Below, in pieces: positions 6,716 through 21,111 of a DNA stretch of 23,828 nt. A model generated the notes under the pieces. That model worked only from the letters and a program-made list of their open reading frames with translations. It searched no databases and was not told the DNA's origin. The stretch is from a virus. How positions within the stretch are numbered: position 1 is the first letter of the stretch; each line of letters begins with the position of its first letter. The stretch is from positions 1-23,828 of the IMG/VR virus record IMGVR_UViG_3300043449_000257. One strand, given 5' to 3'. The position numbers and the translations under genes are program-made.

Positions 6716-8722
6716 ATGCCAACTGCAAATTCATACGTTCCTTCGGAACAACCTTATATAGGGCCTACTGTAAAGACGCCCACCGATGTGCAGCCAGGTG
6801 TTGCTACAGGAACAATTAATAATAGACCAACGCCGGTAAACACTGTATCTAATACGGCTCCCATCACTCCCGGTGTTGCTACTAGTACTGAACCCCCTCC
6901 ACCCTTACCTAATGCTGAGAATTTCAATTTGGAAATAAATCTTGCTTCATTGAGTGTTACTCCTAACCAAGTTATAACTGCTTCTGCTGTTCCAGCCGGA
7001 ACAACCAATTGGATTCAATATAACAATAGTGGATCATTTGGTGCAAATGCAAACTTACAATGGGCACAAAATGGTCTATGGGTGGGCGGCGTTTCAACTT
7101 CGGGTGATGCTTCCGGAATTATTACCGCTAAAAATGATTTTCGTGCAGGTTCTTGGAAGCCTAATAGATTCTCCGCAGATTCAGATACCTTCAGTCGTTT
7201 CCGTCATGCTCCAAATTCACCTAACGCAAACACAACTTTCTATGGATTCAACAGTGATCCTCAAGTCAGTAAACAGCAATCAACTGTTATAACTAACGAA
7301 ACACAGTTAACTAGTGCAATGGTTTTATTTGAAGGTGTTGCGTATAATACTTCGGCATCGAATAGACCTACCGGGACCATCTTTGGCGTGAGTGTTAATA
7401 ACGGTTATGCCAACGACCGCCCAAGTACAGGTACTGAGTTCGGTTGGAAAAAGATGATGACTGTTAGTAACTGGGGTGAACTCGGTGTTGCTGGAAATAT
7501 TAGTATTAATCCAAGTTGGCAATATATCGCTACTCAACCTGCAAATAACCAAGTAGGTATTGTGTTTGCTGATGGCACGTTCCAATACACGGCCGCTACA
7601 GGAGGTGCAATCACTATCAAAGAAGAAGGTACTAATATCGTAGCCTCTGCTAATACAATTAACTTTGTTGGTTCAGGTGTTACTGCAAGTAATGTAAGTG
7701 GTGTAGCAACCATCACAGTGCCAGGTGGAATCACGGGTGTTGCTGTACAAGAAGAAGGTACTAACGTATTAGCAACAGCAAATACAATCAACTTTGTGGG
7801 AAGTGGCGTTACTGCAAGTAATGTAAGTGGTGTAGCAACTATTACAATTTCAAGTGGAGGAATTAGTGGCATTGCTGTACAAGAAGAAGGTACTAACGTA
7901 TTAGCAACAGCAAATACAATCAACTTTGTAGGTTCAGGAGTAACAGCAAGTAATGTTGGTAATGTTGCAACTATCACTATTACAAGCGGCGGCATTAGTG
8001 GCATTGACATCTTAGCCAATGCAAGTCCTGTAACTGCAAATGCTACTTCTATTAGTTTTAATGGACCTCTAGCCAACGTAGCCAATGTAGGTTTCGGCAA
8101 TGCTACAGATGTTACTATTGGTCTAACTGTACAAGATGAAAGCAATGTCATCTCAGGAAATGCATCTATTGGTACACTTAACTTTTTAGGATCAGGAGTT
8201 ACTGTAACTTCTGGCCCAACTGGTGTTGCAAACATTACAATTAATAGTGGTGGTAGTTCAGGCGGTTTGCCGGGATACTTGCGAACCTATACAGGTGGGA
8301 CAAATACACCGGCAACTTCTGCAAATGTTTGGTATCCATTACCATTAGACAATGCGGCTTTAATTAATACAATTAATGCAAGTGACTATGCTAATGGAAT
8401 CGTGAACCTACAGCCCGGTACTTATATATTTGAAACCACAGCATATATTAAGAACGACGGTTCTGACGGGATAACTTATGTGTACACTGCTATTGTTGAA
8501 AATAATCCGGGAGTTGGTGTAGGCAACGTGATAGCCAATGGATGTAGATTGTACATGGGTGACTGGCAAACAGCTACTTTTGTGGCTACCGGTACATTTA
8601 CTATTGCAAATCAAACAAAAGTTTCTGTTGCGTTCCTACAATCAGATCCGTCCCCGCAGGCAGTTGCTTACGCTGAAAATGGCTGGTGTACAACTATATT
8701 AAAACTTTGGCAGACTGCATAA
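6716..8722 (+). CDS. tail fibre / receptor-binding-type structural protein
   Basis: 668 aa, RBS AAGGGG. The N-terminus is a Pro/Thr-rich low-complexity linker (to about 90, with PPPPLP). Next comes a segment with NWIQYNNSGSFGA and LQWAQNGLWVGG, typical of phage fibres. Then come three near-identical units of 43-44 aa plus one diverged copy (about 297-516), with cores EEGTNVLATANTINFVGSGV and TASNVSGVATITI. The C-terminal 150 residues (PLDNAALINTINASD, QPGTYIFETTAYI, FTIANQTKVSVAFLQ) have the pattern of a C1q/TNF-like jelly-roll, likely the trimeric receptor-binding tip. Expressed late. The repeats allow length change by recombination. Confidence 0.75.
   Translation: MPTANSYVPSEQPYIGPTVKTPTDVQPGVATGTINNRPTPVNTVSNTAPITPGVATSTEPPPPLPNAENFNLEINLASLSVTPNQVITASAVPAGTTNWIQYNNSGSFGANANLQWAQNGLWVGGVSTSGDASGIITAKNDFRAGSWKPNRFSADSDTFSRFRHAPNSPNANTTFYGFNSDPQVSKQQSTVITNETQLTSAMVLFEGVAYNTSASNRPTGTIFGVSVNNGYANDRPSTGTEFGWKKMMTVSNWGELGVAGNISINPSWQYIATQPANNQVGIVFADGTFQYTAATGGAITIKEEGTNIVASANTINFVGSGVTASNVSGVATITVPGGITGVAVQEEGTNVLATANTINFVGSGVTASNVSGVATITISSGGISGIAVQEEGTNVLATANTINFVGSGVTASNVGNVATITITSGGISGIDILANASPVTANATSISFNGPLANVANVGFGNATDVTIGLTVQDESNVISGNASIGTLNFLGSGVTVTSGPTGVANITINSGGSSGGLPGYLRTYTGGTNTPATSANVWYPLPLDNAALINTINASDYANGIVNLQPGTYIFETTAYIKNDGSDGITYVYTAIVENNPGVGVGNVIANGCRLYMGDWQTATFVATGTFTIANQTKVSVAFLQSDPSPQAVAYAENGWCTTILKLWQTA
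7607..8265 (+). repeat. in-frame tandem repeats inside the fibre gene
   Basis: The motif GAAGAAGGTACTAA starts at 7622, 7751 and 7883 (periods 129 and 132 bases). A diverged fourth unit begins around 8128 (QDESNVISG...). Units 2 and 3 are nearly identical over long stretches at the DNA level, indicating recent duplication or gene conversion. Confidence 0.85.
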
Positions 8723-8726
8723 TCGG

Positions 8727-8755
8727 TTGACATTAACTGAGTTTGGCTGTATAGT
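8727..8755 (+). promoter_or_regulatory. sigma70-type early promoter
   Basis: TTGACA (8727-8732), 17-base spacer, TATAGT (8750-8755). Predicted +1 falls at about 8762, the A of the ATG of the next gene, so the mRNA would be leaderless. Confidence 0.8.
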
Positions 8756-8761
8756 CACACT

Positions 8762-9022
8762 ATGTCTGAACGATTTAATAACTCACTTGAAGTCAGGGAC
8801 ATTATTGTGGACCTGCGTCGGCAATTGAAACGTTCACGTTATAATCCTGATCTACATAAATTATTGAACAATTTGGGTGAAATGAATTCCCAACTCAGTA
8901 GGCTTGAGGTAGAAGCCCGTCAGACCCATAAAGACCACAAAGTTGTTGCATATAAGCAACAGATTTCACAATCCATCGATTATCTCGAAAAAATGATATT
9001 AATTCTCAAACTTATGGATTAA
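8762..9022 (+). CDS. small coiled-coil hypothetical protein
   Basis: 86 aa, highly charged and almost wholly helical by composition (VRDIIVDLRRQLKRSRY, NNLGEMNSQLSRLEVEARQ, YLEKMILILKLMD), so a coiled coil or helical bundle is likely. No Shine-Dalgarno is seen, and the ATG sits six bases after the -10 box. It is the first gene of the early island at 8.7-12.5 kb, each with its own promoter. No family is recognised. Confidence 0.65.
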   Translation: MSERFNNSLEVRDIIVDLRRQLKRSRYNPDLHKLLNNLGEMNSQLSRLEVEARQTHKDHKVVAYKQQISQSIDYLEKMILILKLMD

Positions 9023-9027
9023 AAGGC

Positions 9028-9056
9028 TTGACTTTAATTCGTTTTGGGCATACAAT
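9028..9056 (+). promoter_or_regulatory. sigma70-type early promoter
   Basis: TTGACT (9028-9033), 17-base spacer, TACAAT (9051-9056), preceded by AAAAGGC. Leader of about 27 bases with RBS GGAG (9080-9083). Confidence 0.8.
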
Positions 9057-9089
9057 ACATGTATTGACACTAAGAAATCGGAGTTAAAA

Positions 9090-9347
9090 ATGAAAGCATT
9101 GCAAGCATATATCGACAAGAAGAATCAGTGGAACGCTATCTTCAAGGGCCGTCAGTACGAAATTCAAACTGCTAAAGGTCGTCAGGAAGTTGCTGATTCT
9201 ATTGATGCTGAACTTAGCCCCGAAAATTTGACTTGCGATGGTGAGTTGCCACGTAGTCAGGTTCAGGCCCGCTATCGTGCATTGACTAGTGCGGCACGTG
9301 ATTTGCAAAAGTTGGACCCATCTGTAAAATTTTATGAGTTTGCCTAA
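9090..9347 (+). CDS. small hypothetical protein (85 aa)
   Basis: ATG 9090 follows RBS CGGAG. The protein is soluble, helical and charged (MKALQAYIDKKNQWNAIF, SQVQARYRALTSAARDLQKL). It has its own early promoter (9028) and ends just before the next one (9356), so it is expressed as a single-gene unit early in infection. Codon usage is rich in CGT/CGC and GCT, unlike the late genes. No family is recognised. Small early phage proteins of this kind often bind host enzymes, but nothing in the sequence shows the target. Confidence 0.7.
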   Translation: MKALQAYIDKKNQWNAIFKGRQYEIQTAKGRQEVADSIDAELSPENLTCDGELPRSQVQARYRALTSAARDLQKLDPSVKFYEFA

Positions 9348-9355
9348 TTTAAGGC

Positions 9356-9384
9356 TTGACATTAAATCAGTTTGGTACTATAGT
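9356..9384 (+). promoter_or_regulatory. sigma70-type early promoter
   Basis: TTGACA (9356-9361), 17-base spacer, TATAGT (9379-9384), preceded by AAGGC. Confidence 0.85.
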
Positions 9385-9415
9385 CTGTATATAGATTGAA
9401 AGACGGAGTTTGAAT

Positions 9416-9685
9416 ATGGCAAACGGTGAAATCAAAATTAAGTTTTACTCTGACCCCGGTCATGGTTGGGCCGCTGTTAAGCGTGACCTCATCAACTCGT
9501 TGGGTATTGCTGATAAGATTTCTTATTACTCTTATCAAAAAGGTAACACCGTTTACCTCGAGGAAGACTGCGACCTTTCTACTCTACTCACTACCCTTAA
9601 TGGTAAGGGCGTGACGGTTACGTTCGATGAACGTCACACAAACAATCGTAGCCCTATTCGTTCGTATGAACAATTTAAGGCTTGA
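9416..9685 (+). CDS. small hypothetical protein (89 aa)
   Basis: The start is placed at ATG 9416, seven bases after RBS ACGGAG (9403-9408). The in-frame TTG at 9410 is too close to that RBS. The product begins MANGEIKIKFYSDPGHGWAA and contains DLINSLGIADKISYYSYQKG and VYLEEDCDLSTLL, a compact alpha/beta protein. I recall similar short phage and plasmid proteins of unknown role but cannot name a family. It is a monocistronic early unit. Its last codons overlap the next promoter, whose -35 box lies within the final TGA (9683-9685). Confidence 0.7.
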   Translation: MANGEIKIKFYSDPGHGWAAVKRDLINSLGIADKISYYSYQKGNTVYLEEDCDLSTLLTTLNGKGVTVTFDERHTNNRSPIRSYEQFKA

Positions 9686-9710
9686 CATTAATTCGAAACC
9701 CTGTTATAGT
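9682..9710 (+). promoter_or_regulatory. sigma70-type early promoter of the MoxR gene
   Basis: TTGACA (9682-9687), 17-base spacer, TATAGT (9705-9710), preceded by AAGGC. The -35 box overlaps the preceding stop codon. Confidence 0.85.
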
Positions 9711-9742
9711 ACACTTATTGTTAAACAAAGGAGCAACTAACA

Positions 9743-10843
9743 ATGTCTCAAGTATCTGATAATCTTACAATCACTTCAGTTCAGGCTCGCAAGGCGATTC
9801 TGACTGCATTTAAAGCAAAGCGTCCCGTTTTTCTTTGGGGCCCTCCCGGCATCGGCAAGTCAGAAGTCGTAGAAGAAATCACTAACGAACTTGGTGGTGC
9901 TATGATTGATTTGCGTATGGCACAGATGGAACCAACCGATATTCGTGGTATCCCATTCTTCAACAAAGAAATCAACAAGATGGACTGGGCTGAGCCTGTC
10001 GATCTACCTAGCGAAGAATTCGCTAAGGACTTCCCTGTTGTAGTTCTCTTCCTCGATGAAATGAACTCTGCACCCCCTGCTGTGCAGGCGGCTGGTTATC
10101 AACTTATTCTTAACCGTCGTGTTGGTAAGTACAAGTTGCCCGATAACGTTGTTATCGTTGCGGCAGGTAATCGTGACAGCGATAAGGGCGTTACGTATCG
10201 TATGCCGATGCCCCTTGCTAATCGTTTCGTTCACATTGAAATGCGTCCCGATTTTGCTTCATGGCAGAACTGGGCTGTGAACAAGAACATTCACAAGGAC
10301 GTTGTTGGTTATCTGTCTTTTGCAAAGCAGGACCTCTATGACTTTGATGCGAAGTCTTCAAGCCGTGCATTTGCTACACCTCGTTCATGGTGTTTCGTTA
10401 GTGATTTGCTTGATGACGAAGACAACACTGATACTGATACATTGTTCAATCTTGTTGCAGGTTCAGTTGGTGATGGTCTTGCTACAAAGTTTATGGCACA
10501 CCGTAAGGTTGCAGGTCGTATGCCTAACCCAACTGACATTCTGTCAGGTAAGGTAACTGAACTCAACGTTAAGGAAATCAGTGCGATGTACTCACTCACT
10601 GTTTCTATGTGCTACGAACTCAAGGACTCACTTGAGAACAAGACTGCTGATCGTAAGCAGTTTCACGAAATGGCTGATAACTTCTTCTCATATATGATGA
10701 AGAATTTTGAAACTGAACTTGTTGTTATGGGTGCTAAGATTGCGCTTAAGACTTACAAGTTGCCGATTGAGCCTTCTCAATTGAAGAACTTTGACGAGTT
10801 TCACAAGAAGTACGGTAAGTACATTGTGGAAGCAGGCAACTAA
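9743..10843 (+). CDS. MoxR-family AAA+ ATPase
   Basis: 366 aa, RBS AAAGGAG (9728-9734) before ATG 9743. Walker A is GPPGIGKS (33-40), Walker B is VVVLFLDEMN, and sensor 1 is VIVAAGN. DIRGIPFF and the NRFVHIEM segment are typical of the MoxR group. These ATPases form rings that remodel target proteins, usually with a partner carrying a von Willebrand A domain. That partner is encoded two genes downstream (11218). A strong terminator (10857) separates them, and the partner has its own promoter, so the stoichiometry is set separately. The phage role is unknown; remodelling of a metalloenzyme or a host complex is plausible. Confidence 0.85.
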   Translation: MSQVSDNLTITSVQARKAILTAFKAKRPVFLWGPPGIGKSEVVEEITNELGGAMIDLRMAQMEPTDIRGIPFFNKEINKMDWAEPVDLPSEEFAKDFPVVVLFLDEMNSAPPAVQAAGYQLILNRRVGKYKLPDNVVIVAAGNRDSDKGVTYRMPMPLANRFVHIEMRPDFASWQNWAVNKNIHKDVVGYLSFAKQDLYDFDAKSSSRAFATPRSWCFVSDLLDDEDNTDTDTLFNLVAGSVGDGLATKFMAHRKVAGRMPNPTDILSGKVTELNVKEISAMYSLTVSMCYELKDSLENKTADRKQFHEMADNFFSYMMKNFETELVVMGAKIALKTYKLPIEPSQLKNFDEFHKKYGKYIVEAGN

Positions 10844-10856
10844 GTAGTTGCTCCTA

Positions 10857-10898
10857 GAGGGGGTAGGGTACGAGACATACTCTATCCCCTCGCTTTTT
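10857..10898 (+). terminator. rho-independent terminator after MoxR gene
   Basis: A 14-bp stem (10857-10870 with 10878-10891, two G-U pairs) has a 7-base loop CGAGACA, then GC and TTTTT. It lies across bases sometimes read as an N-terminal extension of the next ORF, which argues against that extension. Confidence 0.85.
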
Positions 10899-10910
10899 AT
10901 TAGGATTCAT

Positions 10911-11156
10911 ATGTCTGACACTGAAAAAAAGAAACTAGAAGTTGTATTTGCACCCGGTTGCTTTGATAACTTTGAAGGTTCACAGGAAGAACTAGATGAA
11001 CTAGTGGCAGAAATTAATCGCCTAGTTGAATCTGGTGAAATTTTTGACCAAGCAGGGTCTATGGTCCTTTCCGATATGGACCTTTCTGATGAAGAATTGG
11101 AAGAACTTCTAAATGATCTAGAAGATGATGAAAAATCTATCCGTTCGGTTCATTAA
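10911..11156 (+). CDS. small acidic hypothetical protein (81 aa)
   Basis: The start is placed at ATG 10911, preceded by TTAGGA (10900-10905). The frame is open back to 10848, but that part is a terminator hairpin. The protein starts MSDTEKKKLEVVFAPGCFDNFEG, then is strongly acidic and helical (SQEELDELVAEINRLVES, LSDEELEELLNDLEDDE). The VVFAPGCFDNFEG block looks like a conserved hypothetical family, but I cannot give it a function. It lacks its own promoter, so expression depends on read-through of the terminator after the MoxR gene. Placed between MoxR and its VWA partner, it may be a small regulator or adaptor of that pair (inference). Confidence 0.65.
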   Translation: MSDTEKKKLEVVFAPGCFDNFEGSQEELDELVAEINRLVESGEIFDQAGSMVLSDMDLSDEELEELLNDLEDDEKSIRSVH

Positions 11157-11160
11157 AGGC

Positions 11161-11189
11161 TTGACATTTAAACCATTCCTTGCTATAAT
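11161..11189 (+). promoter_or_regulatory. consensus sigma70 promoter of the VWA gene
   Basis: TTGACA (11161-11166), 17-base spacer, TATAAT (11184-11189), a perfect match to both boxes. AAAGGC precedes the -35. Confidence 0.9.
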
Positions 11190-11217
11190 TAAAACATAAT
11201 TAATCGAAGGAGTTTTT

Positions 11218-12516
11218 ATGAGCGATGTAATTTCCCCCACTAAGAAGAAAAAGCGCACACGTAGCAAGAAGTTTGAAAATCTTGTGGGACCAATGGATCC
11301 TAAGATTGACAATCTTGCACGTGAACGATTGATTACTGCACGTATCGGTCTACTGTTGCGTCATTCTTTTTTCGGCAATCTTGCGACCCGTCTTACTCTC
11401 ATCAATGCTGATGAATGGTGTTCGACTGCGGCAACTGATGGCTTGAAGTTTTATTACAACTCACGTTTCATTATGATGTTGAAGCCTAAGGAAGTTGAAT
11501 TCCTCGTAGGTCACGAAGTATTGCACGTTGTATACGATCACATTGGTCGTCGGGGCACACGTGACCCTGAAATGTTCAACATTGCAAATGACTATGCTGT
11601 TAATGCAGACTTGAAGCGTCACAAAGTTGGTGACTTCATCACCACTGTCCCATGCTTGTACGAGCCTAAGTATGATGGTAAGTCTAGTGAAGAAATTTAT
11701 GACGATCTCATGAAGAACGTCAAGTATATTTCTATGGACGACCTCATCGACAAGATGCTTGACGATCACCTCGATGGTGAAGGTGATGGTGACTCTGATA
11801 GTGATGGCGATGGTGACAAAGAAGGCAAAGGCAAGCGGCCACAAATGTCTGATGAAGAACGTGAACGTGTTCGTCAGGAAGTAAAGCAGGCTATTATTAA
11901 CGCCGCATCATCGGCAGAAGCAGGTCAACTGCCACTAGGCGTTGAGCGTATGATTAAGCAGATGACTGATCCAATCATGCCCTGGCGTGAACTCATTCAG
12001 ACTAACTTGACTAGTGCTATTCGTAGCGACTATTCTTGGATGCGGCCATCACGCCGTTCTTGGCATATGGATGCTATCATGCCCGGCATGAATCCTGGTG
12101 AAGAGATTGACGTTACTGTTGCTATCGATATGTCAGGCTCAATTTCTGCAAAGCAAGCACAAGGCTTCTTGTCAGAAGTTGCAGGCATGATGGAAGCATT
12201 TGATGGTTACAAGGTCCACGTGTTTTGCTTTGATACTGAAATCTATAACCCTCAAGATTTCAATTCAGAAAACATGGACACTATCGAAAGTTACGATCCT
12301 AAGGGCGGCGGTGGCACCGACTTTGATGCAATCTTCCGTTATCTTAAGGAAGAAGCAATTGAGCCTAAGCGATTGATTGTCTTTACTGATGGTTATCCCT
12401 TTGGTTCATGGGGTGACCCTGACTACTGCGATACGACTTGGATCATTCATGGTGACCCGAATCCCAATCCCCCTTTCGGGACATATGCGATTTATGACGA
12501 TCATAAAAAGCGTTGA
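11218..12516 (+). CDS. VWA-domain / putative metallopeptidase partner of MoxR
   Basis: 432 aa, RBS GAAGGAG before ATG 11218, with a Lys/Arg-rich N-terminus (KKKKRTRSKK). Residues about 30-170 form a zincin-like domain with HEVLH (H99-E100-x-x-H103), as in the metallopeptidase-like N-terminal region of DUF2201 proteins. A very acidic linker follows (GEGDGDSDSDGDGD, about 185-200). The C-terminal VWA domain has a complete MIDAS: D304-M-S-G-S308, the Thr in GGGGTDFD and the Asp in FTDGYP. MoxR/VWA pairs act together, with the VWA protein as adaptor or substrate receptor. Whether the HExxH is an active peptidase here is not known. Confidence 0.8.
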   Translation: MSDVISPTKKKKRTRSKKFENLVGPMDPKIDNLARERLITARIGLLLRHSFFGNLATRLTLINADEWCSTAATDGLKFYYNSRFIMMLKPKEVEFLVGHEVLHVVYDHIGRRGTRDPEMFNIANDYAVNADLKRHKVGDFITTVPCLYEPKYDGKSSEEIYDDLMKNVKYISMDDLIDKMLDDHLDGEGDGDSDSDGDGDKEGKGKRPQMSDEERERVRQEVKQAIINAASSAEAGQLPLGVERMIKQMTDPIMPWRELIQTNLTSAIRSDYSWMRPSRRSWHMDAIMPGMNPGEEIDVTVAIDMSGSISAKQAQGFLSEVAGMMEAFDGYKVHVFCFDTEIYNPQDFNSENMDTIESYDPKGGGGTDFDAIFRYLKEEAIEPKRLIVFTDGYPFGSWGDPDYCDTTWIIHGDPNPNPPFGTYAIYDDHKKR

Positions 12517-12742
12517 GGAAATAACCATCTTTGAAAGTCCAGATGGTGGTAAGACGGTCTACTCACGTAAGAGTGGATCGTCTGACCGTACTTTAATTAA
12601 AGAAGATCCTGAAAAGAAATTCTTGTCTAAATGGCATGAGTGGCGAGAAATACTTACATTGGCAGAAACAGAACCGTCATTGGCAAACGCTATTAATAAA
12701 GCAGAAATGTTATATGTCCTACTCAAGAAAGAACAAAACTAG
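12494..12742 (+). CDS. small hypothetical protein (82 aa)
   Basis: The start is placed at ATG 12494, overlapping the VWA gene end by 23 bases. ATG 12485 is an alternative, and the frame is open to 12377 only as a shadow of the VWA gene. The product is charged, with VEEITIFESPDGGKTVYSRK resembling a short beta-hairpin start and KKFLSKWHEWREILTLAE helical after it. It has no own promoter, so it is probably co-transcribed from 11161. No family is recognised. Confidence 0.6.
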   Translation: MTIIKSVEEITIFESPDGGKTVYSRKSGSSDRTLIKEDPEKKFLSKWHEWREILTLAETEPSLANAINKAEMLYVLLKKEQN

Positions 12743-13088
12743 ACACTATCTCGCAATGTGGGATATGCTTGGACTTGAATGTCTAGTAGAAGTTGATTCA
12801 CATATCAAAGAATTTGAAGAATGGGATAAGAAACGAGTAGTCGCCATTCTTAAAGAAGATCCTATGCCACCGAAGCCTAAAGGTATCCCATTACAAATGA
12901 TGTTGCTACGTGCAAGGGTTAATAGTCAACGGTGTTATGAGATTTACGAATTCAATAGTACTTTAAAGTACAAAGACCTTAAAGAAGCATTCAATGATAA
13001 TCCACAACCTATCGTAGAATGGATTAGAGAGAATGGTAAAAAAGTTTATAGCGACTATGTTAAGCAAGAAAGAAAGATGATTGTATGA
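12714..13088 (+). CDS. conserved-type phage hypothetical protein (124 aa)
   Basis: The start is placed at ATG 12714, overlapping the preceding gene by 29 bases. The frame is open to 12636, but those codons lie wholly within the preceding gene. The product starts MSYSRKNKTRHYLAMWDMLGLECL; the RHYLAMWDxxGLE block is one I recall from hypothetical proteins of other T4-like phages. Mid-protein PPKPKGIPLQMMLLRARVNSQR is basic, and the C-terminus has EWIRENGKKVYSDYVKQERK. It overlaps the next gene as ATGA, a sign of coupled translation. Function unknown. Confidence 0.65.
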   Translation: MSYSRKNKTRHYLAMWDMLGLECLVEVDSHIKEFEEWDKKRVVAILKEDPMPPKPKGIPLQMMLLRARVNSQRCYEIYEFNSTLKYKDLKEAFNDNPQPIVEWIRENGKKVYSDYVKQERKMIV

Positions 13089-13516
13089 TGTACATTGGTA
13101 CTAGTTTAGGTGGATGCTTGCAATCACTGATGGCAGGTGAAGTGTCCATTCATGACGTTTTATTGATTGTTACACGCACACGTGCTCCTACATTTGAAAA
13201 GTATATTGGAGTAGTGTCAAGTTACATTACATATGGTAATCCAAATTCACGCAATAGTCATTTGTACGAACTATCGCATTATCCCAGCGATGCTGTAATT
13301 GACATGGCAACTAATTTGTGGTACATGGGAAAAATTCATCAACCACGTGTTGGAGTATCAGATAGTGGTAGTGACATGTCTGGTTATTCGCATATTGATT
13401 TAGACGGTAATCTTTGGATAGAAATTATCCCCCCGCAAAAGATGCAGAATCCTGCAGTAAAGGACTTATGGGATAAGGTTAAAATGACAGTGGCTTTGAC
13501 AAATGCTAACGGTTGA
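13085..13516 (+). CDS. conserved-type phage hypothetical protein (143 aa)
   Basis: ATG 13085 overlaps the previous stop (ATGA). The sequence MMYIGTSLGGCLQSLMAGEV, DVLLIVTRTRAPTFEKYIGVV, then LWYMGKIHQPR looks like an alpha/beta protein that I believe is widespread in T4-like phages without a known role. It overlaps the next gene by 14 bases. It lies in the same run as 12494-13748, likely one transcript from 11161 or beyond. Confidence 0.65.
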   Translation: MMYIGTSLGGCLQSLMAGEVSIHDVLLIVTRTRAPTFEKYIGVVSSYITYGNPNSRNSHLYELSHYPSDAVIDMATNLWYMGKIHQPRVGVSDSGSDMSGYSHIDLDGNLWIEIIPPQKMQNPAVKDLWDKVKMTVALTNANG

Positions 13517-13748
13517 TGATATCAATTTACATACTTGGTTTACAGAGCGTGAATTGAATTATATTCCCGGTCATTTTACTGTGGCTAACACACCATTACA
13601 AGATGATTCTAAACTTTGGATTATCGAAAAATTAGTTGGTAGATATGCTATTGCTACAACAGCATCGGGTAGTTTCTTGTTAGATGATGAATACCCGGCA
13701 TTTGAAGACCCAAAAGAAGCAGTTTTTTACGAACTCACCTGGTCTTAA
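13503..13748 (+). CDS. small hypothetical protein (81 aa)
   Basis: ATG 13503 lies within the end of the preceding gene. The product has a beta-rich pattern (HFTVANTPL, KLWIIEKLVGRYAIATTA, SGSFLLDDEYPAF) and is acidic at the C-terminus. No motif is recognised. It ends the unidirectional run before the late promoter at 13776. Confidence 0.6.
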   Translation: MLTVDDINLHTWFTERELNYIPGHFTVANTPLQDDSKLWIIEKLVGRYAIATTASGSFLLDDEYPAFEDPKEAVFYELTWS

Positions 13749-13775
13749 ATAAAAAAATATAACGATGATATATCT

Positions 13776-13783
13776 ATTAAATA
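13776..13783 (+). promoter_or_regulatory. weak late promoter ATTAAATA
   Basis: Six of eight matches to TATAAATA, followed by the CT seen in all other copies. It lies in the 63-base gap before the 13812 gene and has a leader with RBS AAGGAG. Confidence 0.5.
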
Positions 13784-13811
13784 CTTCTGTCAAAACACAA
13801 GGAGAAACAAT

Positions 13812-14534
13812 ATGAGTTTTTTACGACACGTCGGTAAGCACGGTGACCGCAAAGTAGCAATCATTTTCCGTGAAGTTCCAGGCGAGCCTCATATGTGTTT
13901 GGTTACATATACCGAACTATTGAATAAGCACATTCATGACCCAATGATTAGATGCATTGAATCAGATATTGGGCAAAATAGTCCAAATCTTGCAGATGCA
14001 CTGAACCGCTCTTATACAAATGATGGTAGCATCATTCTTCAGAAGTTGCATGCTGAGGGCCAATTAAAGAAGGTTAACACTGAACAGGTTGTAATGACCC
14101 CTGCACCAAACGTTAAGATTAAGTTGAACGAACTCAACAAGATCCTTGATGAAATGGAAATGGGCGAAGCCGCTGTTAAGAAGTTAGCCGAAATGGATCA
14201 GAGCATGGGAATGCAGAATCCAGTAGACGTTGCAAGACGTATGCGCGGTGATGCAATGCCAGATTCAATCACACAGAATCAAGGATCACTTGCCGGTGCA
14301 GTAGATGCACTAGGTGATAATCAACTTGCTAATACATTCAGGCAGCAGGCCGAAAAGATGGAACGTGAAGCGAAGGGTCTAATGGCCGAAGCACAGCGTT
14401 TACTTTCAGAAGCGGCGGCACTTGAACCGGCTCCGGTTAAGGTTCCGGCCAAGCGTGGCCCGAAGCCTAAGACAGCATCAGTAGATGCTACCCCTGTACG
14501 TACTAGTAAGGCTAAGAAGGTAAATGTCGCCTGA
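13812..14534 (+). CDS. hypothetical protein with coiled coil and basic AT-hook-like tail
   Basis: 240 aa, strong RBS AAGGAG (13799-13804). The N-terminal 110 residues form a globular part (FLRHVGKHGDRKVAIIFREV, CLVTYTELLN, DALNRSYTNDGSIILQKLHAEG). Residues 115-200 are helical (LNELNKILDEMEMGEAAVKK, RQQAEKMEREAKGLMAEAQR), and the C-terminus is Pro/Lys-rich with KRGPKPK, close to an AT-hook core. A DNA-associated scaffold-like role is possible but not shown. I believe the N-terminal block recurs in other T4-like phages. The end overlaps the next gene by 11 bases. Confidence 0.65.
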   Translation: MSFLRHVGKHGDRKVAIIFREVPGEPHMCLVTYTELLNKHIHDPMIRCIESDIGQNSPNLADALNRSYTNDGSIILQKLHAEGQLKKVNTEQVVMTPAPNVKIKLNELNKILDEMEMGEAAVKKLAEMDQSMGMQNPVDVARRMRGDAMPDSITQNQGSLAGAVDALGDNQLANTFRQQAEKMEREAKGLMAEAQRLLSEAAALEPAPVKVPAKRGPKPKTASVDATPVRTSKAKKVNVA

Positions 14535-14820
14535 ATTTATCCAGAAATGGGAAAGTTTACTTGAAGACGTTGATAAGCAAAAAATTCCAGTTGAGTTTAT
14601 TAAAAAGTTAGTTGTTAAACTTGTTGGCAAGAAACAACAAACTATCAATATCGAAAAGTTACTAAGTCAGGGACTAGACCCAGATCAGATTGAAGAAGCC
14701 ATAAGCAGAAAACTTATGGAACTTGACGATCAGGTCAACAGCATTGAATTCATTCTTAATGTTCAAAGCATCGCAGATACAGTACAGCCGGAAACAGATC
14801 GTTTATTAAATAAATTATGA
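14524..14820 (+). CDS. small hypothetical protein (98 aa)
   Basis: ATG 14524 lies inside the end of the 13812 gene. The product is all-helical and charged (SPEFIQKWESLLEDVDKQ, VEFIKKLVVKLVGKKQQ, DPDQIEEAISRKLMELDDQV). It shares the transcript with the 13812 gene and overlaps the DHFR gene as ATGA. The pairing with a coiled-coil neighbour suggests a complex, but no family is recognised. Confidence 0.6.
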   Translation: MSPEFIQKWESLLEDVDKQKIPVEFIKKLVVKLVGKKQQTINIEKLLSQGLDPDQIEEAISRKLMELDDQVNSIEFILNVQSIADTVQPETDRLLNKL

Positions 14821-15272
14821 AACTTATAGTAGCATGTGATCCGAAAGGTGGAATAGGCTACAACAACAAGTTGCCCTGGACTAACATCCGGGGCGATTTG
14901 CCAAGATTCAAGGCGTTAACTGATAATAGCGTTGTTGTTATGGGACGTAATACTTGGGAGAGTTTACCAAAGAAACCGTTAATAGGTAGACTTAATTTTG
15001 TTGTAACTAGTAAAACACTTACTTTACCATTTGGAGCCATTCAAGTACCAAACTTAAATCACTTTAGTGAATATAAAAATGCTTGGCTAATTGGTGGCGC
15101 CCAATTGATAAACTCTAGTTGGCATATGATTGATGAGATTCATCTAACAAAAACAATTAACCAATATACTTGCGATTCATTTATTGATTTGTTATACTTA
15201 GAAAATAATTACACAATGACACGTAGTGAATTCAACGGAGATCATATATATCAGATATGGAATAAGAAATGA
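14817..15272 (+). CDS. dihydrofolate reductase
   Basis: 151 aa, close to the usual 155-160 for bacterial enzymes. Motifs in order: MKLIVACDPKGGIGYNNKLPW (substrate loop; longest run here MKLIVACDPKGGIGYNN), an acidic residue in GDLPRFK (equivalent of Asp27), VVMGRNTWESLP with the GR-T NADPH contact, GRLNFVVTS, and WLIGGAQL. It reduces dihydrofolate to tetrahydrofolate, regenerating the folate oxidised by the thymidylate synthase encoded next to it. ATGA overlaps at both ends point to coupled translation. All key residues look intact. Confidence 0.93.
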   Translation: MKLIVACDPKGGIGYNNKLPWTNIRGDLPRFKALTDNSVVVMGRNTWESLPKKPLIGRLNFVVTSKTLTLPFGAIQVPNLNHFSEYKNAWLIGGAQLINSSWHMIDEIHLTKTINQYTCDSFIDLLYLENNYTMTRSEFNGDHIYQIWNKK

Positions 15273-16168
15273 AACAGTATCACGACCTACTTACAGATAT
15301 TTTAGAGAACGGTGAAAGCAAAGATGATCGCACCGGGGTAGGTACGATTAGCGTTTTTGGTCGTCAATTGCGATTTGATTTACGTGAAGGGTTTCCTGCT
15401 GTTACTACTAAAAAACTTGCATGGAAAGCATGTGTAGGTGAATTACTTTGGTTCATCGAAGGTTCAAGTGATGAACGTAGACTAGCAGAGATTACACACG
15501 GTGACCCAGAAGGAAAGGTTACTATTTGGACACCGAACGCACTGGCACCATATTGGAAGCCTAAGGCTACGTTCGAAGGTGATCTAGGCCGTGTGTACGG
15601 AGTACAATGGCGTCATTGGAACAAATATCGTGTAGAGAAAGATATGGGTCCTGCACATAAAGGCGGTACACGACTTGCAGTAGACAACATTGAAGTTGAC
15701 CAGTTGGCAAATCTTATTGAAGGATTAAAGTCTGATCCAAATGGCCGTAGGCATATTCTTAGTGCATGGAACGTTAGCGAGTTAGACCAAATGGCATTGC
15801 CACCATGTCATGTTATGAGTCAATTCTATGTCAACAAAAATAAAGAACTATCTTGTCATATGTATCAGCGCAGTGTGGATGTGTTTCTTGGTTTACCTTT
15901 TAACATCGCTAGTTATGCACTTCTCACTCATTTGATTGCACAAGTTTGTGATTTGAAAGTTGGAGAATTGATTATTTCAACAGGCGATACACACATTTAT
16001 ACTAATCACGTTGAACAAGTTAAAGAACAACTATCACGTGAAAGTTACCCAAATCCAACATTATCTTTGAATAAAGAAATAAAAGATATTGACAAATTCA
16101 CAATATCTGATATAGTGTTAAATGACTACAAGAGTCATGGTACTATTAAGGCTGAAATGGCAGTATGA
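15269..16168 (+). CDS. thyA: thymidylate synthase
   Basis: 299 aa, longer than E. coli ThyA (264) through insertions around residues 80-135 that hold the FEGDLGRVYGVQWRHW block. Key motifs: DRTGVGTISVFG, GELLWFIEGS, the catalytic LPPCH with Cys180, YQRSVDVFLGLPFNIASYALL, and GDTHIYTNH. It makes dTMP from dUMP with methylene-tetrahydrofolate, paired with the DHFR gene that it overlaps as ATGA. The C-terminus AEMAV fits the closing tail of the family. It feeds phage DNA synthesis. Confidence 0.97.
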   Translation: MKQYHDLLTDILENGESKDDRTGVGTISVFGRQLRFDLREGFPAVTTKKLAWKACVGELLWFIEGSSDERRLAEITHGDPEGKVTIWTPNALAPYWKPKATFEGDLGRVYGVQWRHWNKYRVEKDMGPAHKGGTRLAVDNIEVDQLANLIEGLKSDPNGRRHILSAWNVSELDQMALPPCHVMSQFYVNKNKELSCHMYQRSVDVFLGLPFNIASYALLTHLIAQVCDLKVGELIISTGDTHIYTNHVEQVKEQLSRESYPNPTLSLNKEIKDIDKFTISDIVLNDYKSHGTIKAEMAV

Positions 16169-16446
16169 AGAAATACGTTAAGGTTATCGATGATAATCCG
16201 ACAGCATTCTACACTGTCGTTGTTCATAAATTCACTTTAGGTGATGTAGATGATCCTGAAATATATGCCGCAGAGCCTATATGGAAGTGGCAGAATAGCG
16301 ACTCAGGAAAATTTATTATGGAACATGCAACTGAAAAACCCTCGTATCACCAACAGGTAGATCATATGGCATATGGCTATCAGTATGCTATTACAGCAAC
16401 ACTTACAGAAACAGATTATACGTATTGGAAGTTGAAGTATGACTAG
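16165..16446 (+). CDS. small hypothetical protein (93 aa)
   Basis: ATG 16165 overlaps the thyA stop (ATGA). The product has a beta-strand start (KYVKVIDDN, FYTVVVHKFTLGD) and many Trp/Tyr residues. The block DPEIYAAEPIWKWQNSDSGKF and the C-terminus YGYQYAITATLTETDYTYWK look like a compact fold. I think related short proteins accompany thyA in other phages, but I cannot name one. It overlaps the next gene by eight bases. Confidence 0.65.
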   Translation: MKKYVKVIDDNPTAFYTVVVHKFTLGDVDDPEIYAAEPIWKWQNSDSGKFIMEHATEKPSYHQQVDHMAYGYQYAITATLTETDYTYWKLKYD

Positions 16447-16627
16447 AGAAGAAATCATCAATAATATGTGCCTCACGTATCGGCACGATTATGGAATCAC
16501 TATTAGCGAAGACGATAAAATGTATACATTGAGTAGTGGTGTCACTGAACTTGAGCGCAAAGGTATTTGGAATACTATGGCTCAAATCTTTGACAATGAT
16601 ATTGCACCTTATATGGAACTTAAATGA
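16439..16627 (+). CDS. small hypothetical protein (62 aa)
   Basis: ATG 16439 overlaps the preceding stop, and its own stop overlaps the next ATG (16624). Charged and helical (MTREEIINNMCLTYRHDYG, SSGVTELERKGIWNTMAQIF). No family is recognised. Tight overlaps on both sides support it being a real gene. Confidence 0.6.
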   Translation: MTREEIINNMCLTYRHDYGITISEDDKMYTLSSGVTELERKGIWNTMAQIFDNDIAPYMELK

Positions 16628-17589
16628 ATATTTTAGTAACAGGCGGATTAGGCCTAATTGGACATAATGTTGTCTACCGATTAATGCAACAGGGACATAA
16701 TGTCACTATCGTTGACACACAAACTACTTATGGAATAATTCCACAAGATGAAATAGATTATCTTATGTCGGAACGAATGAAAAAGATTCATGATCCGGCA
16801 TTCTATAATATGTGTATCAGTGATACTAAGTTAGATGGAGTATTTGCTTCACATAGGTTTGACCAAGTAATTCATATGGCAAGTTTCCCTAGACAGAAAG
16901 TTGTCAACAATAATCCTGTACTAGGGTCACGCACGATGAGTGAAGGCTTAATCAATCTATGTGAATTGAGCAAGAAGTATAATGTACAAAAGTTTATCTA
17001 TATCAGTTCTAGCATGGTATATGGTGACTTTAAAGATGACGTAACAGAAAACGCTGTATGTAGACCACAAGGTCAATATGGCATTATGAAATTAGCAGGA
17101 GAATGGCTTGTCAAAGATTACTCGCGCCGAGGTTGTTTTAACCATACTATTATTCGTCCTAGTGCTGTATACGGGCCTCTTGACGTTGAGGATAGAGTCA
17201 TTGCAAAGTTCATGCTTACAGCAATGCGCGGAGGAGTGCTTAATGTTAATGGAGCCGGAGAGACCCTCGACTTCACCTACGTTGAAGACGCTGCCGATGG
17301 CATAGTTGCAGCCGCACTTAGTGATAATACTAATTTTAATACTTACAACATTACAAAGAGCCATAGTCGCACATTACTTGATGCTGCCGAGTTAGCAGTA
17401 AAGATTGTAGGCAAAGGTTCAATTGAAGTTAGAGGAAAAGATGTTGACTTCCCTAGTCGGGGCGCATTGAATATTGATGCGGCAAGAAAAGACTTTGGGT
17501 ATAATCCTAAGGTAGACGTAGAAGAAGGTTTTGAAAGATATTATGAGTGGCTTAGTGATTCCCCATTTTGGTCTAAAAAGACAGTATAA
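16624..17589 (+). CDS. NAD-dependent sugar-nucleotide epimerase/dehydratase (extended SDR)
   Basis: 321 aa, close to the family norm. The Rossmann motif is TGGLGLIG (G7, G10, G13 spacing), followed by VTIVDTQTTYG. The active site has ISSSMVYG and Y152-x-x-x-K156 (YGIMK), and the family block RPSAVYGP is present, as is DFTYVEDAADGI. It acts on nucleotide-activated sugars with NAD(P). The exact reaction (4-epimerase, 4,6-dehydratase or related) cannot be read from motifs. The next gene, a DegT aminotransferase, overlaps it by 47 bases, suggesting a two-step amino-sugar pathway. It may alter host LPS or a phage glycan. Confidence 0.88.
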   Translation: MNILVTGGLGLIGHNVVYRLMQQGHNVTIVDTQTTYGIIPQDEIDYLMSERMKKIHDPAFYNMCISDTKLDGVFASHRFDQVIHMASFPRQKVVNNNPVLGSRTMSEGLINLCELSKKYNVQKFIYISSSMVYGDFKDDVTENAVCRPQGQYGIMKLAGEWLVKDYSRRGCFNHTIIRPSAVYGPLDVEDRVIAKFMLTAMRGGVLNVNGAGETLDFTYVEDAADGIVAAALSDNTNFNTYNITKSHSRTLLDAAELAVKIVGKGSIEVRGKDVDFPSRGALNIDAARKDFGYNPKVDVEEGFERYYEWLSDSPFWSKKTV

Positions 17590-18610
17590 AAATCTACGTG
17601 AAGAATTATTAATTGCTACCGATGAGGTTCTTAGGACTGGTTGTCTAGTTAATGGCCCTCAAACATCTAGATTTGAAGACTGGCTAAGACTAAAAACAGG
17701 TACATGGTATGCAACTGTAGTACATAGTGGTACACAAGCATTAGAAATAATGGCCCGCTATGAGAAATCAAAACACGTTCCTGCTATTTCATTCAATCAT
17801 CCCCCTCCCTGTGTAGTAGTACCTAACATAACATATCCGGCAACACTTAACGCATTTATTAATGCAGGTTGGGATGTTAAGATAGGTGATACTGATAAGA
17901 ATGGTCTATTAAATTTAAATGAAAACGTTTTCGATTACAAATGTTTTGTAGGCTTATATGGTGCAACTACAGATAAAGAATTAACTAGTAAAGTTTTTGT
18001 AGATGGCGCACAGCATTGGTTAGTTGCTGATGGTAACGTTGGCATGGGCATGGCAATTAGTTTTGACCCTACTAAAAACTTAAACGCTAGTGGCAACGGC
18101 GGTGCTATTGTAACAAATGATGAAGACTTGTATCACTATGCAGTGAACTACAAGAACAATAGCAAGCCAATGGAGCATATCTATACTGGCACTAACAGTA
18201 AAATGAGCGAATTAGATTGCGCACATTTATTAGTACGTAGCAAATATATTCATGAATGGCAAGAACGTAGAAAGCAAATCAGAGAATACTATATTGAACG
18301 TTTCAAGGACTTGCCTATTCGTTGTCTAAGTGACGGATTTATTAAACATGCGGATCAAAAGTTTGTAATCTATACTGAAGATCGTGACAGACTACATGGC
18401 AATATGATTGTAGATGGAATTGAAACTAAGATTCACTATGAAAAAACATTGAGTGAATTAATGGTTACACGTAATATGGAAACACCAGATATGATTAGTA
18501 CTAGTCTAATGCTATCTAAGGGAGTATTGAGTCTTCCTATGTATCCAGAATTAACTGATAGTGAAATAGAAACTATAACGGAAAAGATTAGGAATTTTTA
18601 TACTAAATAG
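17543..18610 (+). CDS. DegT/DnrJ/EryC1-family PLP aminotransferase
   Basis: 355 aa from ATG 17543. The in-frame TTG at 17531 is less likely, as the family normally starts just before the IPHFGLKRQY block. Motifs: LVNGPQTSRFE, HSGTQALE (PLP phosphate contacts), FVDGAQHW, and SFDPTKNLNASGNGGAIVTND with Lys178 as the probable Schiff-base lysine. It aminates keto-sugar nucleotides using glutamate. It overlaps the epimerase gene by 47 bases in another frame. Together they probably make a modified sugar for surface glycans. The C-terminal domain is slightly shorter than in many bacterial members (about 370-390 aa). Confidence 0.85.
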   Translation: MSGLVIPHFGLKRQYKNLREELLIATDEVLRTGCLVNGPQTSRFEDWLRLKTGTWYATVVHSGTQALEIMARYEKSKHVPAISFNHPPPCVVVPNITYPATLNAFINAGWDVKIGDTDKNGLLNLNENVFDYKCFVGLYGATTDKELTSKVFVDGAQHWLVADGNVGMGMAISFDPTKNLNASGNGGAIVTNDEDLYHYAVNYKNNSKPMEHIYTGTNSKMSELDCAHLLVRSKYIHEWQERRKQIREYYIERFKDLPIRCLSDGFIKHADQKFVIYTEDRDRLHGNMIVDGIETKIHYEKTLSELMVTRNMETPDMISTSLMLSKGVLSLPMYPELTDSEIETITEKIRNFYTK

Positions 18611-18617
18611 TATCACT

Positions 18618-19118
18618 ATGTGGATACTAACATTTTTTCCTGACCTATTGGTCCATCTCATCGTTGCCCTAGGGGCGTTACTATTTCTTGCGGCAACATT
18701 CTTAGGAATGTTTCCTATTGTCAACACATACAAGACGCCCGCACAAATTGTGGGCGTAATCATTCTACTATGGGGATTGTATCTAGAGGGTGGTTTGGCC
18801 TATAAAGACAAACTTGCAATCGAAGTAGCAGAACTTGAAACAAAATTGGCCAAAGCGGAAACAAAGGGCGCAGAAAAGAACACTGAAATCGTTACTAAAA
18901 TTGTCAAGGATACTAAAGTTATCCGTCAAAAAGGCGATGATGTAATCAAGTACATTGATAGAGAAATCGTCAAATATGATGACCAATGCATAATCCCATT
19001 AGAGGTAATTCAAGCACATAATCGTGCGGCTACATTGACTTCTGATCCGGTGACACCAACTGTAACAGAAGAAAAGAAAGACGGCAAAATGCTATTGCCA
19101 GCGAGGACAAGTAAATGA
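18618..19118 (+). CDS. i-spanin-like inner-membrane lysis protein (Rz-like)
   Basis: 166 aa. Two hydrophobic segments lie at about 9-35 (LLVHLIVALGALLFLAATFL) and 42-57 (AQIVGVIILLWGLYLE), then a charged coiled coil (61-115: KLAIEVAELETKLAKAETK). The tail contains CIIPLEVIQAHNRAA, resembling the end of Rz proteins. Its gene overlaps a small lipoprotein gene (19115) as ATGA, the classic Rz/Rz1 layout. Spanins fuse the inner and outer membranes at the last lysis step. Two membrane segments instead of one is unusual and would put both ends on the same side. Confidence 0.7.
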   Translation: MWILTFFPDLLVHLIVALGALLFLAATFLGMFPIVNTYKTPAQIVGVIILLWGLYLEGGLAYKDKLAIEVAELETKLAKAETKGAEKNTEIVTKIVKDTKVIRQKGDDVIKYIDREIVKYDDQCIIPLEVIQAHNRAATLTSDPVTPTVTEEKKDGKMLLPARTSK

Positions 19119-19392: not shown

Positions 19393-19426
19393 CTTCTGAT
19401 TGATAAATACTATATAACGACGGAAG
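19393..19426 (+). promoter_or_regulatory. weak RBS-pairing hairpin around a late promoter
   Basis: CTTCTG (19393-19398) can pair with CGGAAG (19421-19426), six pairs including one G-U, across a 22-base loop. The right arm is the RBS of the 19433 gene, and the late promoter sits in the loop. Confidence 0.3.
19402..19409 (+). promoter_or_regulatory. late promoter GATAAATA
   Basis: Seven of eight matches to TATAAATA plus CT, followed by RBS CGGAAG and ATG 19433. It likely drives the 19433 gene and the three paralogues behind it. Confidence 0.7.
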
Positions 19427-19432
19427 ACTATT

Positions 19433-19966
19433 ATGGCCACACAACAAATTATTAACATTGGTGCACTACCAAACGACGGTGAAGGCGATCCGTTACGTGT
19501 AGCCTTTGGAAAGATTAATAATAACTTCTCTAATCTTTTCTCTACTTTTGTTAATACTAGCAATACATATTCAACAGGAAATACAGCAGGACAAGTGCTT
19601 TTTGAGACTCCTGCAAACGCATTTACCCAAGGTCAATTCTATATTCGTTCTAACGATCCGGGTACTGATAATAGCCAGACTATTCAATTATATGCGCAGA
19701 TTAATCCAGCCGGAGATGAAATTAAATTCACTGGATATGGTTCAACATTCTTTGGTAATGCACTAGCACGTTTTGACATGGATGTATTAGGTGGAAACGT
19801 GCGTATCTTATGTGACCCATTAATCGATAATTCAATCTTTCACTTTATCTCCTCACAGATCATGTTCCAGGGTGTACCTATTCCAGGCCTAGATATTCAA
19901 TTAGATGGGTTTGATGATTCAGTTATGTCAACTGAAGATGATTTTATTTTAGCAACAGAAGAATAA
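19433..19966 (+). CDS. virion fibre-like structural protein
   Basis: 177 aa, RBS CGGAAG. The start INIGALPNDGEGDPLRVAFG, then KINNNFSNLF, is the widespread phage fibre N-terminal signature ('NDGxGDxLRxAFxKxNxNF') that anchors short fibres or whiskers to the virion. The rest is beta-rich (GQFYIRSNDPG, IQLYAQINPAG) and ends in an acidic tail (DDSVMSTEDDFILATEE). It is the first gene behind a late promoter, consistent with a virion part. It may be a truncated fibre or a separate adaptor. Confidence 0.65.
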   Translation: MATQQIINIGALPNDGEGDPLRVAFGKINNNFSNLFSTFVNTSNTYSTGNTAGQVLFETPANAFTQGQFYIRSNDPGTDNSQTIQLYAQINPAGDEIKFTGYGSTFFGNALARFDMDVLGGNVRILCDPLIDNSIFHFISSQIMFQGVPIPGLDIQLDGFDDSVMSTEDDFILATEE

Positions 19967-19967
19967 A

Positions 19968-20372
19968 ATGAGAGCCAGAGAATTTATTACCGAGCAACGG
20001 TTAGATCAAGTCCACGATGGTCTTGATGTGGCATCTATGGCTCTGCCTAACACATATGTTATTCCAGAGTTAAAGAACAATGACTTCTATGATTTATATC
20101 GTTTTGGCGTAGCGATTGCCGCAGTAAGAGGCGAGAGTGGTACCGACGATGTGCAAAATGGTTATAAGCCTAATTTCAATGCAGAAAGCAGTTGGGGTGA
20201 ACATCAAGTAGTATCCTCAGAGTTTGATAAAGACATTGGTAAAACTATTGACCAAGCATTAAAGAAAGTCGGCAAGTCTGGTAAAAAACGTGTAAGCACT
20301 CCCGGTAGCGATGAGATGGATGACACTGAATTTAACTCTCCGATTAAAGCCTTTAAAGGATATAAGAAATGA
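19968..20372 (+). CDS. candidate prohead-targeted internal protein, paralogue 1
   Basis: 134 aa, starting two bases after the preceding stop. It begins MRAREFITE, almost the same as the T4 capsid-targeting sequence (MKTYQEFIAE) whose I/L-x-E end is cut by the prohead protease gp21. Its C-terminus is SPIKAFKGYKK, shared with the two following genes. The middle (YDLYRFGVAIAAVRGES, SSWGEHQVVSSEFDKDIGKT) is alignable with theirs but diverged. It is likely a protein packed into the head and possibly injected with DNA (inference). It overlaps the next gene as ATGA. The biochemical role is unknown. Confidence 0.6.
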   Translation: MRAREFITEQRLDQVHDGLDVASMALPNTYVIPELKNNDFYDLYRFGVAIAAVRGESGTDDVQNGYKPNFNAESSWGEHQVVSSEFDKDIGKTIDQALKKVGKSGKKRVSTPGSDEMDDTEFNSPIKAFKGYKK

Positions 20373-20740
20373 GATTTCATGAATTTATGTCCGAAAGCAA
20401 AGAAGCCAAAGTAAGCAAACGTCAATCTGTTTCTACAAAAGGCTTACATAAGTTTCGTGATCCACAAGGATATGACCGCACTTATGAATTAAATCGTATC
20501 ATGATGGCAGTAGCATGCACAGATGGTGATATTGATCCTGTGCTAGACGGTGAAAGTTGGGCCGGAAGATTTAATACTGCACATCCATATAGTGAATTAG
20601 AACAAAGAATGCTACAAAAAGCATATAAGGCTGTTGGTTCAGAAATTCATGACTTGAATCACGGTGACTTAAACAGCACTGAACTAGATAGTGTTAATAC
20701 CATAAGCCCATTCAAGCCATTTAAAGGCTATAAGAAATGA
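20369..20740 (+). CDS. candidate prohead-targeted internal protein, paralogue 2
   Basis: 123 aa with N-terminus MRFHEFMSE, which fits a capsid-targeting peptide ending at x-S-E. The core YELNRIMMAVACTDGD, ESWAGRFNTAHPYSELEQRML is closely related to paralogue 3 (LLNRVMMAAASTDGK, SWASRYNIAHPYTKEDQ). The C-terminus is NTISPFKPFKGYKK. ATGA overlaps on both sides mean the three genes are translated as a set. A basic C-terminal patch could bind DNA inside the head (inference). Confidence 0.65.
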   Translation: MRFHEFMSESKEAKVSKRQSVSTKGLHKFRDPQGYDRTYELNRIMMAVACTDGDIDPVLDGESWAGRFNTAHPYSELEQRMLQKAYKAVGSEIHDLNHGDLNSTELDSVNTISPFKPFKGYKK

Positions 20741-21111
20741 GAGCATGGGAATTCATAACCGAAGGTAAAAAAATTCCCGGTTCTCCAAACCATCATAGTG
20801 GTCCCTTGACTGGGTTACACCGCTTTAGCGATAGTACCTATGATAGATATTATTTGCTAAATCGAGTAATGATGGCCGCGGCAAGTACTGATGGGAAAAC
20901 ACCACCGGATATGGATAGTGACAGTTGGGCCTCTCGTTATAATATAGCACACCCTTATACCAAAGAAGACCAAGAAAAACTAAGGTTAGCATATGAGGCC
21001 GCCGGCGTAAAAAAGTTTGATGATCTTACAGACGGTGATGTATCTAGTACAGAAGTTGCCGGCGCAAATACTATTAGCCCAGTTAAGCCGTTTAAGGGCT
21101 ATAAAAAATAA
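20737..21111 (+). CDS. candidate prohead-targeted internal protein, paralogue 3
   Basis: 124 aa, N-terminus MRAWEFITE (I-T-E before Gly, the preferred residue after a T4 gp21-type cut), core related to paralogue 2, C-terminus NTISPVKPFKGYKK. The sequence following the targeting peptide (GKKIPGSPNHHSGPLTGLH) is Gly/His-rich. It is the last gene of the cluster; a 51-base gap follows before the methyltransferase gene. Confidence 0.65.
   Translation: MRAWEFITEGKKIPGSPNHHSGPLTGLHRFSDSTYDRYYLLNRVMMAAASTDGKTPPDMDSDSWASRYNIAHPYTKEDQEKLRLAYEAAGVKKFDDLTDGDVSSTEVAGANTISPVKPFKGYKK

Follow-up and report, generated by a model that had tools for sequence, protein, structure and literature searches.

We have defined a widespread family of small phage proteins, previously without annotation in the libraries searched, starting from three tandem genes in a 23,828-base virus fragment (hereafter the window). 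Comparative sequence evidence makes it highly probable that members of this family are packed in the phage head and trimmed there by a gp21-type protease. In the proposed mechanism, ORF1, ORF2 and ORF3 would be late genes of a large T4-like myovirus, and their products internal head proteins. A capsid-targeting sequence of the form MR(A/F)xEF(I/M)xE would bind each protein to the prohead core, a gp21-type protease would cut after E9 during head maturation, and the mature proteins of 114-125 residues would stay inside the head. The family would be one part of a modular cargo set: tags of this kind also stand on unrelated proteins encoded nearby, and some phages join the family domain to the C-terminal side of a tagged nucleotidyltransferase-like domain, leaving a putative second cut site at the joint. 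In large freshwater and marine phages, such tags mark a range of otherwise unrelated putative cargo proteins, among them enzymes that mass spectrometry has found in virus particles. The tag may allow the head-packed proteins of a large T4-like phage to be recognised from sequence.

Three paralogues and their family

ORF1 (19968-20372; 134 aa; predicted mature form Q10-K134), ORF2 (20369-20740; 123 aa; predicted mature form S10-K123) and ORF3 (20737-21111; 124 aa; predicted mature form G10-K124) lie on the plus strand, and ATGA overlaps couple ORF1 to ORF2 and ORF2 to ORF3. The first-pass annotation had described three tandem paralogues joined in this way, and the description holds. Profile searches and tag conservation place all three in a single protein family, iterative searches from each converging on the same 118 sequences. 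Further collection scans enlarged the family to about 200 sequences, a few of which are long proteins matched only via a fused domain; 310 loci were matched in one collection scan alone. Most loci of the first set hold two or three tandem copies, with exact ATGA overlaps at 129 junctions, and copy number across relatives ranges from one to three.

The family has no match in Pfam, PHROGs or PDB sequences, and searches of the same three resources found no enzymatic domain in the cores. No homologue of the small domain was recovered by tblastn against INPHARED (50,697 phage records), nor any family relative in bacterial genome contigs (one query). Alignment-based collection searches were unproductive, the family being without a conserved block. 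AlphaFold models of the cores were of low confidence, and Foldseek on these weak models gave no usable match. The cores are not basic (pI 5.4-8.1).

The nine-residue tag

Each paralogue begins with a nine-residue tag predicted to be cut after E9, namely MRAREFITE in ORF1 (19968-19994, plus strand), MRFHEFMSE in ORF2 (20369-20395, plus strand) and MRAWEFITE in ORF3 (20737-20763, plus strand). Tag conservation was assessed in 54 non-redundant members (<90% identity). M1 and E9 are invariant (54/54), position 2 is R/K, position 5 is E/D, position 6 is F/I, position 7 is I/V/M/L, and positions 4, 8 and 10 are variable. Residue 7, the P3 position, is I in 40 members, V in 8, M (as in ORF2) in 4 and L in 2; a strict L/I is therefore kept in 42/54, and the V or M of the other 12 makes the range wider than the L/I rule of T4. 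The nonamer carries 3.44 bits per column vs 1.97 for residues 10-25, and 170 of the 171 standalone members starting with M[KR] are tagged.

In T4, the IPIII targeting sequence comprises 10 residues, of which 4 and 7 are important for targeting and 8 and 10 for processing; gp21 cleaves after L/I-X-E (PMC9026906). Compared with MKTYQEFIAE, the T4 signal quoted in the first-pass annotation, F6, I7 and E9 of the family align with F7, I8 and E10, and the tag would form a short N-terminal propeptide close to the (L/I)-X-E type. With E9 invariant and P3 always one of four hydrophobic residues, near the gp21 rule, the likeness to T4 capsid-targeting N-termini first read from three sequences is borne out across the family.

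The operon and its late promoter

The operon consists of four genes, with a 177-aa tail-related gene (19433-19966, plus strand) encoding a T4 gp9/10-like N-terminus (phrog_677, E=4.8e-9) followed by ORF1-3. The ATG of ORF1 lies one base past the stop of this gene, and a gp9/10-type gene sits ahead of the paralogues in most loci. A T4-type late promoter (GATAAATA / GATAAATAC; 19402-19410, plus strand) stands ahead of all four genes, and GATAAATA was found 25-36 nt 5' of the gp9/10-like gene in 38/38 distinct upstream regions examined. The KATAAATAY count in the window alone (3 vs 2.35 expected) is uninformative, and the promoter question was settled by comparing relatives. In two of these, G001 and G002, GATAAATA precedes 14 genes vs 0.34 expected, several of which are recognisably structural or terminase genes as judged by eye. 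The late promoter reported in the first-pass annotation is real, conserved and enriched, but it lies at 19402, ahead of the upstream tail-gene homologue and not directly ahead of ORF1. The family is predicted to be expressed late, from the conserved GATAAATA.

The FKGYKK tail as a ribosome-binding site

All three ORFs end in FKGYKK, as had been pointed out, but this shared ending largely reflects the ribosome-binding site of the next gene. The codons for the ORF1 C-terminus (20352-20369, plus strand) contain AAAGGA at 20355-20360, the ribosome-binding site of ORF2, and those for the ORF2 C-terminus (20720-20737, plus strand) contain AAAGGC, the ribosome-binding site of ORF3. FKGY is present in 65/66 copies that are translationally coupled to a next copy vs 50/105 last copies (p=4e-14). 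The Gly codon is GGA in 49/65 coupled vs 12/50 last copies (p=7e-8), which places AAAGGA or AAGGGA eight bases ahead of the next ATG. The enrichment and the codon bias together indicate that the tail doubles as the next gene's ribosome-binding site. The shared C-terminus is thus at least partly a ribosome-binding-site effect and by itself provides no packaging evidence. A role for FKGYKK as a second targeting signal was considered and, for coupled copies, replaced by this explanation; about half of the last copies keep FKGYKK, and some protein role may remain.

Protease and head genes in relatives

The first-pass annotation had proposed a search for a gp21-like protease. The protease gene is absent from the window, a 23.8 kb fragment, and present in all eight family-bearing contigs >112 kb. 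Peptidase_S77 (PF03420) was detected in 2/16 family-bearing records in one search and in 7/12 in another. In G001, a 200 kb relative whose ORF1 homologue is 93% identical, and in G002, the genes for portal, acidic core protein, protease, scaffold and capsid protein are consecutive, in T4-like head order; the G001 protease is encoded at L114:12661-13293. Giant phages, PA5oct, 121Q and Vibrio phage 2.275.O among them, have capsid proteins 62-67% identical to that of G001. At the site expected for cleavage, the N-terminus of the G001 protein reads QLLAE|STAG, where 121Q has MLTE|SA. Scans of Vibrio phage 2.275.O, PA5oct and 121Q, giants with the same capsid type, found no family-like tag; not every phage with this type of capsid therefore has the tag. 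Beyond the capsid gene of G001 lies a 138-aa protein starting MKITEIVVEN, possibly tagged (L114:9037-9453, minus strand); its GGDCPEAA and GHVAVLY stretches look papain/NlpC-like by eye, and Pfam gave no match.

The tag on unrelated neighbours and at fusion joints

A search for the N-terminal motif outside the three paralogues, also suggested at the outset, gave a divided answer. Non-family genes within four genes of the family and on the same strand match M[KR]..(x0-2)[ILVMF]xE in 24/180 clusters vs 9/615 elsewhere (p=5e-10), and decoy motifs in which E was changed to D, K or Q abolished the effect. Genome-wide in G001 and G002, on the other hand, a medium-strict motif gave only two matches beyond the family, approximately the internal background, which indicates that tag abundance is local and not genome-wide. 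In one operon (L029:7040-13454; G003 12538-18952), most of the consecutive, mutually unrelated genes encode an (I/L/V)xE tag in the first ten codons, including a cytidylyltransferase-like protein that starts MLLRELFE.

Eleven fusions carry the family domain at their C-terminal end. Most begin MKLREMFE, MKLRELFE or MKLRQLFE and continue into a nucleotidyltransferase-like domain, assigned from an HxGH-type motif and tblastn matches to cyanophage cytidylyltransferases; Pfam gave no match for this domain in one fusion and a weak one for a related neighbour. Since fusions had entered the iterated family model, some of its matches to long proteins (L139, L141, L150-L160, L183 and L156) extend over the nucleotidyltransferase part alone, and these were excluded from the fusion count. 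At the domain boundary, where standalone members have their tag, the fusions carry MLES, VAES, LLET, LNES, LIES and the like; in L170:5284-6375, a nucleotidyltransferase-domain fusion, the joint is LES. A comparison of nine linkers showed E in every one, with L/M/V at P3 and S/T at P1', and linkers of different lineages are mostly 9-34% identical (ungapped comparison). Retention of [LMV]xE[S/T] at the joint of diverged linkers argues that the motif marks a processing site and does not stem from start-codon context. The fusions appear to have lost the targeting half of the tag and kept the cutting half, as the T4 division of labour predicts.

In two proteins of 800-920 aa (L159:7239-9641 and L160:2930-5692), DUF6267 is joined to a nucleotidyltransferase-like domain and to other modules, and several LxE/IxE stretches lie between the modules; both are possible head-protease polyproteins.

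Tagged enzymes in cyanophage virions

Virion proteomics of cyanophage S-CREM2 have been published (PMC10665884, Table 3). When M[KR].{2,5}F[ILVM].E, a motif derived from the window family, was run on the 219 S-CREM2 genes, four matched, all encoding virion proteins (4/52 detected vs 0/167 undetected, p=0.003); the test was not fully blind, as the N-termini were known before the motif was run, though the motif owes its form to the family. The matching genes are gp6, a SAM hydrolase (MKDFDSFLEE), gp13 (MKDLHSFLTE), gp14, an APH-like kinase (MKRFDAFLTE), and gp154, a cytidylyltransferase (MKNFSSFLTE). Past the predicted cut, the sequence continues ADEK... in gp154, QDR... in gp13 and EETEAHK in gp14. 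A looser motif, which carries some background, adds gp12 (Cas9-like) and gp136 (MQTFSMFFSE). The gp12 Cas9-like nuclease, found in the virion, is encoded at 7704-10313 on the minus strand of OR473000.1 (L230); its RFASFMAE stretch, which ends at residue 25, resembles a CTS site moved inward from the N-terminus.

The cytidylyltransferase of S-SZBM1, which starts MRFRQFIIEA, was detected in particles (PMC9146016). The S-SCSM1 NMNAT, which carries a virion-protein annotation, begins MKSFLQFLKEA; ORF30 of S-SCSM1 is a second motif match, without such an annotation. The small domain of the family itself was not found in S-CREM2, S-SCSM1 or S-SZBM1. The authors of the S-CREM2 study could not exclude co-purification of the virion enzymes (PMC10665884), and the cyanophage enzymes might be co-purified contaminants. 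The tag offers an explanation for the recurrence of NMNAT-like transferases, kinases and a SAM hydrolase in cyanophage virion proteomes, and this head-packing explanation is directly testable in existing mass-spectrometry data.

Discussion

Packaging and trimming, which had been proposed from the three N-termini, is strongly supported as a prediction by the conserved tag, the protease of relatives, the tagged neighbours, the fusion sites and the published virion mass spectrometry of tagged enzymes in related phages. The evidence against it is the V or M at P3 in part of the family, the non-basic cores, the giants in which no family-like tag was found, S-SCSM1 ORF30, the absence of the protease from the fragmentary window and the possible co-purification of the cyanophage virion enzymes. 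If the N-terminus were instead unrelated to the head, translational coupling and the context of the start codon would account for its conservation, and ORF1-3 would be ordinary tail-operon or cytoplasmic late proteins. The start codons do lie inside overlaps, the tail of the preceding gene is shaped by the ribosome-binding site and the upstream gene is tail-related. The tag is, however, kept in uncoupled genes and on unrelated neighbours, its P3-P1 part alone persists inside fusions far from any start codon, the requirement for E is residue-specific, and tagged enzymes are present in cyanophage virions; we regard this explanation as very improbable.

What the proteins would do once packaged and trimmed is a separate matter. 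They could be structural, as prohead-core or DNA-packing components that never act in the host. Tandem diverging copies without a detectable enzymatic domain would suit such a role, and T4 IPIII aids head assembly, IPIII mutants assembling heads more slowly (PMC9026906); the copy number of one to three and the fusion to an enzyme-like domain suggest cargo over scaffold, and we consider a purely structural role rather unlikely. Ejection with the DNA at infection, followed by an early role in the host cell, would be the likely next step for packaged cargo, and by analogy with the T4 internal proteins and Alt, ejection is somewhat probable given packaging. Action against host defence, as of T4 IPI against GmrSD, had also been suggested. 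It draws on the analogy with IPI (PMC9026906), on tandem diverging paralogues, which would suit an arms race, and on the tagged SAM hydrolase of S-CREM2 virions, for which an anti-restriction role has been proposed (PMC10665884). The family has no relative of known function and no fold match, and no defence-related context was found around it; we consider an anti-defence role improbable.

T4-type capsid-targeted internal proteins are a known kind of system, of which the family would be a new case. Its likeness to T4 IPI, IPII and IPIII lies in a short tag whose closing F-(I/L)-x-E falls at almost the same place, in small late proteins occurring in several versions and in a gp21-type protease in the phages. 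The family differs in a tag of 9 residues vs 10 in T4, in a P3 that is also V or M, and in cores that are not basic, unlike those of the T4 proteins, and that are unrelated in sequence as far as tested, with no sequence match to the IPI, IPII or IPIII cores and no fold match from the weak models. T4 Alt is an ADP-ribosyltransferase that is packaged and N-terminally processed. As a head-carried enzyme with a short cleaved propeptide, it resembles the tagged nucleotidyltransferase-like neighbours and fusions, but Alt has an enzyme domain and the family itself has none. The virion enzymes of S-CREM2, S-SCSM1 and S-SZBM1 share CTS-like N-termini with the family and have different domains. Many head ejection proteins of the SPN3US / phiKZ type, some of them paralogous, are trimmed after E by a prohead protease, but the SPN3US motif is A-X-E and many propeptides exceed 100 residues, unlike those of the family (PMC5694885).

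The idea that T4-like phages can package varied proteins by means of CTS-like tags was put forward earlier in a review (PMC9026906); within an incomplete literature search, the family, the internal joints and the link to cyanophage virion enzymes seem to be new. We tentatively raise the possibility that M[KR]..x[FIL][ILVM]xE and internal [LIVM]xE[ST] joints form a general cargo-delivery code of large T4-like phages in fresh and marine water, by which multidomain polyproteins and enzyme sets might be loaded into the head, where the prohead protease would cut them apart before their delivery to the host. If such a code is true, injected proteomes would be predictable from sequence alone.

Other genes in the window

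A late protein of modular build (4567-6666, plus strand), in which Pfam recognises nucleotidyltransferase and GNAT domains, is possible further cargo. Its N-terminus is nucleotidyltransferase-like (phrog_36119), and the presence of GATAAATAC at 4555 suggests that the true start may be the ATG at 4597; no tag was seen at the N-terminus. The N-terminal part matches S-CREM2 126042-126749, overlapping gp156, a virion protein, and the C-terminal module (EASGYIP...TALTKDV...KN..AF) also occurs in the fusion L167:4621-6360, directly before the family domain. At 9743-12516, a MoxR-like AAA ATPase gene is followed by a DUF2201 metallopeptidase/VWA gene, a pair with a possible chaperone or activation function. 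The stretch 16624-18610 holds nucleotide-sugar epimerase-like and aminotransferase-like genes in tandem (translations judged by eye), which may belong to surface or DNA sugar modification.
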